Of a stretch of 64,000 nucleotides of DNA, positions 33,909 to 37,574 are shown one piece after another. Both the position numbers and the translations under genes were made by a program. Where the stretch lies: assembly GCA_947034885.2 (NCBI GenBank), contig OX344750.2, positions 39,542,821 to 39,606,820 of the forward strand. Reading direction: 5' to 3'. Within the stretch, counting starts at the first letter, position 1, and every line of letters starts with the position of its first letter. The DNA is from Thuidium tamariscinum (taxonomy: Eukaryota > Streptophyta > Bryopsida > Hypnales > Thuidiaceae). The notes beneath the pieces are model-generated. The model did no database searches. It saw only the letters and a program-made list of their open reading frames with translations, and was not told the DNA's origin.

Positions 33909-33915
33909 TATATAG
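33909..33915 (+). promoter_or_regulatory. Candidate TATA box of the MYB gene
   Basis: TATATAG within GGCCTATATAGAGCTC, in a GC-rich context upstream of the MYB gene. It is the best TATA-like match I found between 33.2 kb and the start codon. If used, transcription would begin near 33940 and give a genomic leader of about 0.9 kb, parts of which may be intronic. Inferred only; no transcript start is known. Confidence 0.45.
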
Positions 33916-33939
33916 AGCTCGGTTTTCCTCCACTGCAAG

Positions 33940-34854
33940 GCTTTGGCACTTTGCTTCAGTGCTGCTAGAGAACACACTTCGTACTGGAGGTCGACGACAG
34001 GTCGTCACATCGAGGAGTTGAACCTCGTGAATCGCTAGCTGCACTTGGAGAGGAGTTCGGACTGGGACAAGGTTGCTACGGAGCCAGCGACGTCTTCGAG
34101 AAGGAGAAGCGAGCTAGACAGCGGAGGATCTTCGGGTACTCTGAATGTGCTCGGGCGGCTTCTTCGAATAATGTGTTGGACGCTGAACACATTCGTAGGC
34201 TTGGATATTCAAAGGTGTTCGGCGGGCGTCCTTTCCACACCGAATTTTTTTCGACGATGCACGGAAATGGTTTGTGGGAAATGCGTGTTACTGGACTAGC
34301 TCGTGAAGTGCAGATGTTGAAGCTTCGTGTACACACAAGAGGTGAGGGGGTTCATCTGTAGAAATCGATGGGTTTGGGTCCTTTCGGAGGCGATACCAAC
34401 AGAGTACTTCGACGGCAGTAGAAGCTCCCATGAGGAGCATTGCATTCCTCCGTGCCTGACGGGATACCGAAATCCGGTGAGAAAAGGGAGTTTGTTAGAT
34501 AGGGGAAGAGCATACGACGCTGCAGCCACGCTGGCTCGCTTCTTCATTTTATCAGAGCGAGAATTGAAACGGCAGCAAGCTGCGGTACGGTTGGTGGCAG
34601 TCCAGCCGAGGGTTTGACAACATAGTCACATGATCAATTTCTATTATTTCCTTCTCGCTGCTCTAGTAAGTGAACTTCCTCCTCGTCACGCACATTCCAC
34701 CACCAAAACGATTGGTGCCGCAACTGCAACTGGGAGATGCCGCGAAAGGTTGGAGCGTGTGTCTAGCTCTCTCCCCCACTAATTGTACGTGTTTCCACAT
34801 CGGGCATGCTCTCTCTCTTCTGTCAGTTGGCAAGGTTTACCCAAGGATAGGAAT
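33940..34854 (+). promoter_or_regulatory. Probable MYB 5' leader region
   Basis: GC-rich stretch between the candidate TATA box and the MYB start codon. It holds several ATG triplets with short reading frames, so either these act as upstream ORFs or part of the leader is spliced out. One possible leader intron runs from a donor at about 34341 (AGAG|GTGAGG) to a pyrimidine-rich acceptor at about 34665 (GCTCTAG). None of the short frames resembles a known protein. The last 50 nt carry the miR156-like site listed separately. Confidence 0.4.
34806..34825 (+). promoter_or_regulatory. Candidate miR156/miR529-type target site in the MYB leader
   Basis: The 20-mer ATGCTCTCTCTCTTCTGTCA differs from the classical miR156 target site of SPL genes only at its first base. 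Paired with canonical miR156, positions 2-13 (including the 10/11 cleavage point) are perfect; mismatches fall at position 14, as in SPL targets, and at 20. The site ends 29 nt before the ATG. Part of it is a CT run, common in plant leaders, so chance similarity is possible. Whether this lineage expresses the miRNA and whether the leader contains the site are untested. Confidence 0.5.
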
Positions 34855-37574
34855 ATGATGGTAATGGAAGAGAGGGCTGCCTGGTCCAACTGCAACACCA
34901 AGTCGATTATGGGTCCGCTTCACAGCTTCGCCGAGGAAGCACGAGTGTTCCACAAAGCGCAAATTTTGGAAACGAGCAGCATCCTGTCCAAGACGACAAG
35001 TTCGTTTTTCCAGACGAAGCCCGGATTCTCCTCGGTGACCACGGTGACTGACGGCGACGGCGACGGCGAGCGCACCTCGTCCGACACCGGCACCCCATTC
35101 GCAGTTGCAGCAGCCGACACTGGGATCCCCTACCAAGCGCTTGTGGCCGACGAACGTTTGTGGCGCATGCACTCGGTGGAGAGCTGCAGCGGCTTCAGCC
35201 GCGACGAGGGGACGAGCTTGGAGGAGGGTGAGGACATGAAAGAGTCCCACGAAGAAGAGGATGTGGAGATGGTCAGTTTCCTGGGCCGAGATGGCGACAA
35301 CAGTAGTGTGCAGTCGAAGCTCTCTCCTCGCGGTCACTGGCGGCCTGCAGAGGACGATAAACTCCGGGAGCTAGTATCGCAGTATGGCCCGCAGAACTGG
35401 AACCTGATTGCGGAGAAACTGCAGGGTCGATCAGGTAATGTTCTTCCTAAGCACGCTCCGTAGTATTATATCGGGTTTTGGAATCGCATCCCCGTCCCAA
35501 ACAGATTATCAACCCCTTGGACCGGTCGACACAATAATTAGATATCCAAAGCTGAACAAATTGACACCTTCGAAGGAACTAATTGGTCCTGATTCAAGCT
35601 TCTACCTCGTAGATTTTACTAAGTGTTGTGAAGTTGCTGAGGTGGGAGCATCGTTGAGCCGATGCAGCTCAACCACGTTAACATCTAGCGTTAACATCTA
35701 GCGTCGGAACGCCGGATCTAAGTTGGAGCACCGGTTCCAAAGAAATCTAGACTTTCTAGATAACAATAAAGTTTCAGTGGCACCGTCTAGAACGCAAGCA
35801 GGGCACTTGGAAAACTGAATTAAGAAAGTCATTATCCTTAACCCATGTACTTGTGATTCAATCTCTTTTTTACATTCGGAGCCTGATGTAAGTTAGTGAT
35901 GTACTCAATTTGCGGCTTACGTTTTGATATGTTCCTGACCCAGAGACGGTCGCGGTGGTTTGTATGTCCAGGCAAAAGCTGCAGGCTACGTTGGTTCAAC
36001 CAGCTGGACCCTCGTATCAACCGGCGCCCCTTCACGGAGGAAGAGGAGGACCGGCTCCTCGCAGCGCACCGCTTCCACGGCAACAAGTGGGCCATGATCG
36101 CGCGTCTGTTTCCTGGTCGCACAGATAACGCCGTGAAGAATCACTGGCACGTCGTCATGGCGAGAAAGCTGCGGGAGAGGTCCCGCGCCTCCGGCCGTCG
36201 CAACAAGGCATCATCTCAGGCGAATCACCATCGCCGCAACAACAGCAACATCAGCAACAAGGCGACTAGAGCCAGCACTCGCAGTACTCGAGCTTGCAAT
36301 CATCCTTCTCCTGATTCTGCCCTCACGGCTTGGATAGAGAAGCAGCAGTCGGACGATCTAGCACGATCGCCACCCCTTGTGGCCAACACTACGAGCTCGA
36401 TGAGCGATGTGTCGAGCTTGTCGCCTCGGAACGAAAGGGTGAACCTCGCCAGCTGTGGGGCTTCGACGTCGACGCCGTTGGCGAAACCGGATTTAAGAAG
36501 TTCTGTTGTTGCAGGTGCCCCTTCAGCTCGTATTCTCAGACTTCGCATTCTCATTGCATTCTGGTTTTTATCTAGTCAATGCTAGAAGTCGGTTACTCCG
36601 AATATTAGTCCCTGCATTTCTGTCAATGCTTGTCAATGCTGGAAATCGGTTACCTAGTATGCAATTCCCAGTACCTTTGATCCAATTTCAAGCTAATGCC
36701 TGATCAAAGTTGAAGTCTGCTTCTAGATCGATGCCCTCTTGAGGTTACTAGTCCCCCGCCGGGATGGACTGCATAGGATTTCTAGGTGCAGTTTCTAAAT
36801 TCTCAGATTTAGAGTTACTGTCTGTTTCATGATGCACTACTAAGTTTACTAGCTGTATGCCCGGTAAACTAGGATCAGGCATCTGGGAATGCCGAGACAG
36901 AATGCTATCATTTGGATCCGATTTTTCAGTTTAATCACATGTTTCTCGCAAGTTTGGGTATTGTGATTTCCATTGAGATCATTATTTATTTTAGGCTTTT
37001 GTTGGTTTCTGATTGCACAGGTGGTAGCAGCAGGCCCGTGTACTTGCCGGGGTTGCCATCGAGTTCTGGGGAGATTTTCCACACCCATCTAGACAGCCAG
37101 ATCACCGCTGGTCTTCTAACTCGTGCGGCCGAAGCGCGAGCGGAGATGAGTGCCTCTCTCGACCTCCCAGACACTACCACCACTGCTTCCTTCGTGGGGC
37201 TCAAGACCACAGTGCAAGGAAGCCTGAGCTACGCAGGCGGTGCGACTCACTGGAGTTCCTCCCTTCCCAACCCTTTCATCAGCCGCAATGGGGACTCCAA
37301 CGGGGAGCTCAGCTACAGATATCAACATCAACGCAATCCCAGTACTCGAGTTTCGCCGGCTTTCAATATATCAAAGGAAGTCGGCAGCTGGGTGCCCATG
37401 GCCTTGACACCCGGCCGTGTTCAGCAGCGCTCGTGTAAGGACAGTAATGCGCTCTTTCTGGGACCTTCCACTTGGGCGACATCTGATAAAGGACTATCAG
37501 AGGAAGTTGCATCACCGCCGGGAAAGCCTGCACAAGTTACGTTCATTGATTTTCTAGGTGTGGGAGCGGCATGA
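34855..37574 (+). CDS. R2R3-MYB transcription factor, subgroup 21 (MYB52/54/105/117-like)
   Basis: This is a nuclear DNA-binding regulator read from three exons: 34855-35434, 35972-36514 and 37021-37574 (558 residues). Both introns are GT-AG and phase 1, and the frames join exactly. R2 (about residues 157-208) has RGHW, NW and LRW tryptophans; intron 1 splits the glycine of GRSG just before [14 protein letters not shown]3 (about 209-260) runs from RINRRPF through HGNKW to [11 protein letters not shown] without an intron. The protein ends [12 protein letters not shown], the subgroup-21 C-terminal signature, so the last exon is secure. An acidic stretch lies at about residues 116-150, and a basic, Asn/Ser-rich stretch follows R3. 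I chose the ATG at 34855 (MMVMEE) because the frame upstream of it holds no earlier ATG. Subgroup-21 genes act in organ boundaries, meristems and cell-wall or seed programmes in Arabidopsis; the role here is inferred. No neighbouring gene is visible. Confidence 0.93.
35435..35971 (+). other. MYB intron 1
   Basis: 537-nt intron, donor CAG|GTAATG and acceptor TGTCCAG|GC. It interrupts the split glycine codon of GRSG in R2, an intron position widely kept in plant R2R3-MYB genes. It contains a 14-bp direct repeat (about 35675-35704) with core GTTAACATCTAGC. No transposon was recognised inside it. Confidence 0.9.
36515..37020 (+). other. MYB intron 2
   Basis: 506-nt intron, donor GCAG|GTGCCC and acceptor TGCACAG|GTGG. 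Phase 1 on both sides restores a glycine codon (GGT) followed by [10 protein letters not shown] in exon 3. The intron is AT-richer than the exons and holds short imperfect direct repeats near 36577-36655 (AGTCAATGCT / GTCAATGCTGG). It lies about 115 residues after R3, not within the DNA-binding domain. The exact donor is supported by frame continuity, not by a transcript. Confidence 0.8.

Follow-up and report, generated by a model that had tools for sequence, protein, structure and literature searches.

The R2R3-MYB gene and its presumed leader

The window, by which we mean the whole 64,000-nt stretch of Thuidium tamariscinum DNA that was analysed, lies on contig C2 and holds an R2R3-MYB gene, with PF00249 matching in two stretches (E 4.2e-35) and the c-Myb, B-Myb and WER chains matching over the MYB domain. 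A signature of 19 protein letters presumably places the gene in subgroup 21 (AtMYB52/54/105/117 type), whose members have boundary and growth roles in flowering plants. The gene has no SBP domain; 14 SBP places were found genome-wide, none of them on contig C2. When neighbouring genes were sought for synteny, the ORFs of at least 180 aa came from the MYB alone. A genome search placed the gene in a group of four MYBs, named below by their contigs: C2 (the window), C3, C1 and C4. The gene is composed as follows:

33909..33915, plus strand, candidate TATA box TATATAG, picked by eye; the C3 paralogue has the same spacing to AAGGCTTTGG
33937..34854, plus strand, putative 5' leader of ~0.9 kb, inferred, which may hold an intron
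34855..35434, plus strand, MYB exon 1 (start codon, acidic N-terminus, most of R2), from Pfam Myb_DNA-binding
35972..36514, plus strand, MYB exon 2 (remainder of R2, whole R3), from GT/AG boundaries and paralogue comparison
37021..37574, plus strand, putative MYB exon 3 to the stop codon, with two stretches 82-84% identical to C3

The intron-2 donor (36515) has a weak score of 1.6. The 10-mer AAGGCTTTGG starts at 33937, 28 nt past TATATAG, with the C3 equivalents of the two at L006:695 and 723, and we infer a transcription start near 33937-33945. The TATA-like box stands ~0.9 kb (window) or 0.8 kb (C3) upstream, and an acceptor-like sequence overlaps the site described below. The presumed leader contains 11 upstream ATGs in the window and 15 in C3 (the site's own counted); so many in a long presumed leader would suggest that translation is strongly controlled or that an intron of the leader has gone unrecognised.

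Some minor features of the leader were also noted. Two words spaced 154 nt apart are common to both leaders (34170-34180 and 34324-34333; L006:999 and 1153), the first of which overlaps, in the window, one arm of an 8-bp inverted repeat. A conserved hairpin near 34170 was rejected: the inverted repeat is perfect in the window, but none was found in C3, and the folds were unremarkable (z -0.97 and -0.32). The 13-mer GAATTGAAACGGC, found at 34561-34573 and L006:1262-1274 with an AG a few bases before each copy, is possibly the start of a leader exon.

A rare miR156-type site ahead of the start codon

At 34806-34825 on the plus strand, 29 nt separating its 3' end from the MYB ATG at 34855, lies ATGCTCTCTCTCTTCTGTCA, which differs by one mismatch from the SPL-type miR156 site GTGCTCTCTCTCTTCTGTCA (19/20). 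The first-pass annotation had reported this match, and its sequence and coordinates proved exact. It is the only match to GTGCTCTCTCTCTTCTGTCA in the window at three or fewer mismatches, and none of 100 shuffles produced one. Over the 363 Mb scanned (19 contigs, both strands), six places came within one mismatch of the SPL-type site against none for a reversed-pattern control, which puts the likeness beyond chance:

C3:41.46 Mb, nearby SBP exons in the same orientation
C7:7.96 Mb, nearby SBP exons in the same orientation
C1:15.77 Mb (15771502), MIR156 hairpin, exact miR156 complement
C2:37.54 Mb (37539409), MIR156 hairpin, exact miR156 complement
C2, window MYB, 34806-34825, plus strand
C3:21880269, MYB paralogue, 20-mer identical to that of the window

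Markov models of order 1-5 predicted 0.05-0.32 such places genome-wide, an expectation that is pushed up because the 159 kb of training sequence (the window and the MYB-hit loci, some overlapping) included loci bearing the site. With up to three mismatches allowed the excess fades (41 places versus 29 for the control); weak matches therefore mean little, and we placed the weight on the class with at most one mismatch and on the C3 paralogue having kept the site.

The possibility that the site is main-frame coding sequence was considered for both genes and discarded. Read in the MYB frame, the window site has no in-frame ATG upstream before a stop, and in C3 the frame meets a stop ahead of the main ATG.

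Predicted pairing and the miRNA loci

The mature miR156 from both MIR156 loci is TGACAGAAGAGAGTGAGCAC, the sequence given for Physcomitrella miR156 in the part of PMC1838911 consulted. Its mismatches to the site fall at nt 14 and 20 only, leaving nt 2-13 intact as had been claimed at first reading, and both SPL loci of the genome share the mismatch at nt 14, again in line with that reading. The AGAA form of miR529 pairs perfectly at nt 1-15 and is mismatched at 16, 17, 18 and 21; the other two miR529 variants pair more poorly. The position-14 mismatch is explained by the site being of the miR529-compatible form, i.e. a dual miR156/miR529 site:

34806..34825, plus strand, predicted miR156/miR529 responsive element, from pairing and rarity

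In pairing scores that leave out nt 21, miR156 obtained 2.0 on both MYBs and 1.0 on both SPLs, and the AGAA form of miR529 obtained 3.0 on the window MYB, 2.0 on the C3 MYB and 1.0 and 2.0 on the SPLs. No pairing of miR535 was found within a score of 6, ungapped, on the seven targets scored. Cleavage is predicted at 34815/34816 for miR156 and at 34811/34812 for miR529, 4 nt apart, and the same 4-nt spacing of miR156 and miR529 cuts is described for maize SPLs in PMC8541648.

The MIR156 hairpins (L003, L004) and the MIR529-like hairpins (L029, L079) carry the mature strand in a near-perfect arm, with fold z of -3.3 to -8.7 (five folds). Searched by E-value, these four loci had MIR156/MIR529 families of Rfam as their top matches (E ~1e-8 to 1e-9, below gathering); at gathering thresholds Rfam gave no match in the window, the four loci or L006. 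The miR529 pattern is not rare (27 places at two or fewer mismatches versus 15 for the control), so the case for MIR529 rests on the hairpins. Two adjoining MIR529-like hairpins are seen at C8:4.396 Mb (L079) and possibly two at C6:4.025 Mb (L029), where the E-value search returned a second MIR529-like match at L029:1200-1320. On C6 the duplex forms a perfect inverted repeat of 22 bp, with the variant AGAAGAGAGAGAGTACAGCCC.

Accessibility, unfavourable in the window and favourable in C3, was left out of the support. Opening the window site is predicted to cost a high 13.6 kcal/mol, and 43 of 52 other sampled 20-mers of the stretch open more easily; the C3 site is open (6.8), with only 5 of 52 sampled 20-mers easier.

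Conservation of the leader block in a MYB paralogue

The C3 copy of the site sits 58 nt ahead of the ATG of its own MYB gene. BLASTN aligned the two leaders over a single block at E<=1e-9 (the next leader match having E 0.66), within which a shorter core is nearly invariant:

34790..34837, plus strand, leader block shared with the C3 paralogue, 48 columns, 87.5% identical (BLASTN)
34806..34837, plus strand, core conserved block, 31/32 nt identical to C3:21880269-21880300
34806..34850, plus strand, uORF MLSLFCQLARFTQG of 14 aa, its ATG formed by bases 1-3 of the site

Outside the block, the best 32-mer of the leader reached 22/32 (823 windows), and dinucleotide-shuffled C3 leaders reached at most 20/32 (300 shuffles). 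The 12 nt beyond the miRNA footprint (GTTGGCRAGGTT) are also kept, at 11/12, which makes a second function of the block plausible. Since smaller words, namely AAGGCTTTGG, AATGTGTTGGA, TTCGTGTACA and GAATTGAAACGGC, are colinear in both, the leaders look homologous throughout, and they are nearly unchanged only at 34806-34837.

The two genes are old duplicates. In the R2R3 domain, C2-C3 dS is 0.90 (NG86), 1.30 (ML) or 1.34 (YN00), and 23 of 50 fourfold sites are identical (46%). The R3-bearing exon of the C3 MYB has 95% identity to that of the window; C2 and C3 have in common LQGRS, TEEEE and an N-terminus with VMEER, and C1 and C4 have in common LHGRS, TEDEE and the N-terminus MCLHF. The C1 and C4 genes lack the site: their best forward-strand match had 7 mismatches in stretches that include ~4.9 and 5.1 kb upstream of the presumed start codons.

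Over the 101-codon domain, pairwise dS for the six pairs among the four MYBs runs from 0.80 to 1.62, near saturation, so that it says little on age and cannot alone decide which genes pair. In that comparison C3-C4 has a marginally lower value (0.80) than C2-C3 (0.85), and BLASTN gives the C3 R3 exon an identity of 88.9% with C4 against 83.7% with the window. The probable pairing of C2 with C3 rests on the N-terminus, the residues listed, the 3' exon matches and the leader, dS having been compared pairwise only. Should C3 instead be closer to C4, the site would have an even earlier origin, followed by its loss in C1 and C4.

Interpretation of the conserved block

We consider that 34806-34825, in the putative 5' leader of the R2R3-MYB, is probably a functional target site of both miR156 and miR529, with a probability of roughly three in four; most likely the MYB pair would be a non-SPL target bearing a dual miR156/miR529 site. 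What is observed is the sequence itself, its rarity, hairpins of both miRNA classes, SBP-box loci with the element and the conservation of the block. The leader would be transcribed from the TATA-like box at 33909, with the site retained in the mature mRNA, where AGO1-loaded miR156 and/or miR529 would pair with it; the mRNA would then be cut at one or the other predicted position and MYB output lowered wherever either miRNA is abundant. The site would predate the C2/C3 duplication and have been kept since. Expression of miR156/miR529 in the cells that make the MYB, and an effect of the cut on growth, are likewise presumed. A miRNA site alone leaves the extra 12 conserved nt (GTTGGCRAGGTT) unexplained.

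The earlier proposal that this MYB may be tied directly to the miR156 module gains strong support from the identical 20-mer in the C3 leader, at a dS of ~1 and with the rest of the leader diverged, and from the presence in the genome of MIR156 genes and of SBP-box loci that carry this site. It calls for three changes: miR529 pairs too, the block also contains a uORF start and a moderate candidate splice acceptor, and only two of four close paralogues have the site. The uORF and the acceptor, considered alone, offer other accounts of the conservation.

The block could be the start of a conserved uORF (MLSLFCQLAR...) that controls MYB translation, the miR156 match being secondary or accidental, which we regard as unlikely. 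It does open exactly at the ATG in both paralogues; the sole base departing from the SPL site is the A of that start codon, the only substitution among the 32 nt (GCA/GCG) leaves the uORF peptide unchanged, and the conserved stretch extends past the miRNA footprint. The C3 uORF, MLSLFCQLARLSTRIVLRRL, shares its first 10 residues with that of the window. However, its length and C-terminus differ (20 aa versus 14 aa), and the nucleotides behind the shared residues are nearly invariant too, with all silent positions of the footprint kept; under peptide-only constraint this has P ~0.04, a modest value obtained with assumed figures for two of its five rates. The 19/20 identity to the SPL element is also left unexplained: read by hand in the open frame, the same nucleotides of the SPL coding sequence give ALSLLS, and the MYB uORF gives MLSLFC, and because the frames differ a shared peptide cannot account for the likeness.

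An equally improbable alternative is that a leader intron ends here, the block serving as its polypyrimidine tract and 3' acceptor (CTCTCTCTCTTCTGTCAG/TTGG), so that the site would be absent from the mature mRNA. The last bases of the block (CTTCTGTCAG/TT) resemble an acceptor, and the site could therefore be intronic; they score 6.1 in both genes, a moderate value on a table that gives the three true acceptors of the gene pair 5.9-8.7. Candidate donors lie upstream (window 34270, 34666 and 34342; C3 L006:905), and such an intron could remove many of the upstream ATGs. Against this, higher-scoring acceptors are present upstream in both genes (window 34555, 7.9; C3 L006:1305, 7.7, and 1167, 6.7), and the intron-1 acceptors of C2 and C3 keep just 9/20 nt, against 20/20 at the site. 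If pyrimidines alone were constrained, the identity would have a P of 1e-6 to 2e-3 (rates assumed), and the SPL match would again go unexplained. The miRNA target site was put first because neither the uORF nor the acceptor alone explains both the SPL identity and the frozen silent and C/T positions.

CT tracts are common near plant starts, and the first-pass annotation had cautioned that the CT-rich context lowers the weight of the match. That the CT-rich sequence arose by chance, or serves as a core-promoter or DNA-binding element, and lacks miRNA function is nevertheless very unlikely: the small genome excess at three or fewer mismatches (41 versus 29) leaves the caution some force, but the expected number at one mismatch or fewer and the empty control speak against chance, and the caution is answered mainly by the identical copy at the same place in an old paralogue. 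Hardly credible is a recent origin of the leader likeness by gene conversion or a small segmental copy, uninformative on selection, for although the genome holds just two copies of the block at three or fewer mismatches, the identity ends sharply outside 34806-34837, the flanks and remaining leader have diverged and fourfold sites of the coding domain are only 46% identical.

Returning to the miRNA target site, a broader proposal that joins it with the other two signals is offered tentatively, and as a whole we find it doubtful. A compound leader element would tie a subgroup-21-type R2R3-MYB pair directly into the moss miR156/miR529 phase-change module, the first bases of the miRNA site being a uORF start codon and its end a possible splice acceptor. 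Splicing or start-codon choice could then set how open the MYB mRNA is to the miRNA. Under the same proposal, the element would have persisted from a duplication at dS ~1 onwards, and miR156 sites in leaders, of which a second SBP-box pair of this genome has weak examples, would represent a pattern of mosses.

Relation to known miR156/miR529 targets

The closest known system is the miR156/miR529-SPL module of land plants (MpmiR529c-MpSPL2, moss miR156-SPL), which has the same 20-nt element up to one base and the same dual pairing with the position-14 mismatch, two SBP-box loci of this genome carrying the exact element. The case described here differs in that the target is an R2R3-MYB, the element starts with the ATG of a uORF, and it is placed in a presumed 5' leader, whereas in SPLs it lies in the coding region or 3' UTR.

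The TAS6/TAS3 precursors of mosses are likewise non-SPL transcripts cut by miR156/miR529, according to passages of PMC3565333 and PMC5907777. TAS6, however, encodes no protein and is a source of ta-siRNAs, whereas the MYB is a protein-coding regulator and has a single site. Over the 3 kb examined, no miR390-type site was found near the MYBs, the best matches having 9 mismatches (L005) and 8 (L006). At L008 (C2:35516557), a miR156 site at 1501 (1 mismatch) is followed ~970 nt downstream by a miR390-type site at 2474 (3 mismatches), and a second, with 7 mismatches, is at 2703. L008 appears to be a TAS6/TAS3 composite locus, so that a known kind of moss miR156 target would have been recovered as a control of the method. 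The combination of MIR156, MIR529-like and TAS6/TAS3-like loci is reported for mosses in PMC5907777, which also states that in Sphagnum fallax TAS6 signatures were not found near TAS3; the set of loci seen here is in keeping with a moss other than Sphagnum.

The GAMYB clade is, we assume, another clade than that of the window MYB. The miR319/miR159-GAMYB module likewise has a miRNA controlling an R2R3-MYB, the miRNA being a different one; action of miR319 on MYB genes in Physcomitrella and Marchantia is mentioned in the available parts of PMC10721683 and PMC4957126. The same combination of miRNA and MYB as ours would be that of the Marchantia miR529-MYB pairs, which rest on one statement contradicted by another assignment. 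A passage of PMC8541648, citing Lin et al. 2016, says that many MYB genes of M. polymorpha are miR529 targets, whereas the portion of PMC9291395 consulted pairs miR319 with MYB and miR529 with SPL. By the same section of PMC8541648, non-SPL targets of miR156/miR529 in single species are the maize COX19 genes and, by that one statement, the Marchantia MYBs.

Non-SPL targets of miR156/miR529 are thus already known in mosses (TAS6), and the MYB pair may be a further target of that sort. Our literature search returned no moss miR156/miR529-MYB pair; it lay outside the main moss degradome and small-RNA papers, the key ones reportedly being Addo-Quaye 2009 and Axtell 2007, and does not establish absence from print.

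If the target site is real, the moss phase-change module would reach a second class of developmental regulator without passing through SPL. According to PMC10721683, the protonema is the main place of miR156 in P. patens, miR529 being in gametophores with sporophytes, and moss miR156 promotes the step from protonema to gametophore. Seed plants and Marchantia show the opposite direction (PMC9516144). A direct MYB target, if confirmed, would bear on why moss miR156 promotes that step.

A second SBP-box pair has a weak miR156-like site, GTGTTCTCTCTCCYCTGTCA, at L010 (C4:29123556-29123575, minus strand) and L089 (C7:7878938-7878957, plus strand). It would make a poor cleavage site because of mismatches at nt 8 and 14 (in the C7 copy also 7) and a wobble at 17. 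In both genes it falls in the presumed 5' leader, ~70-77 nt ahead of the presumed ATG; a 24-nt stretch, CGTGTTCTCTCTCCYCTGTCACTC, differs between them at one base, the surrounding leader being less alike.
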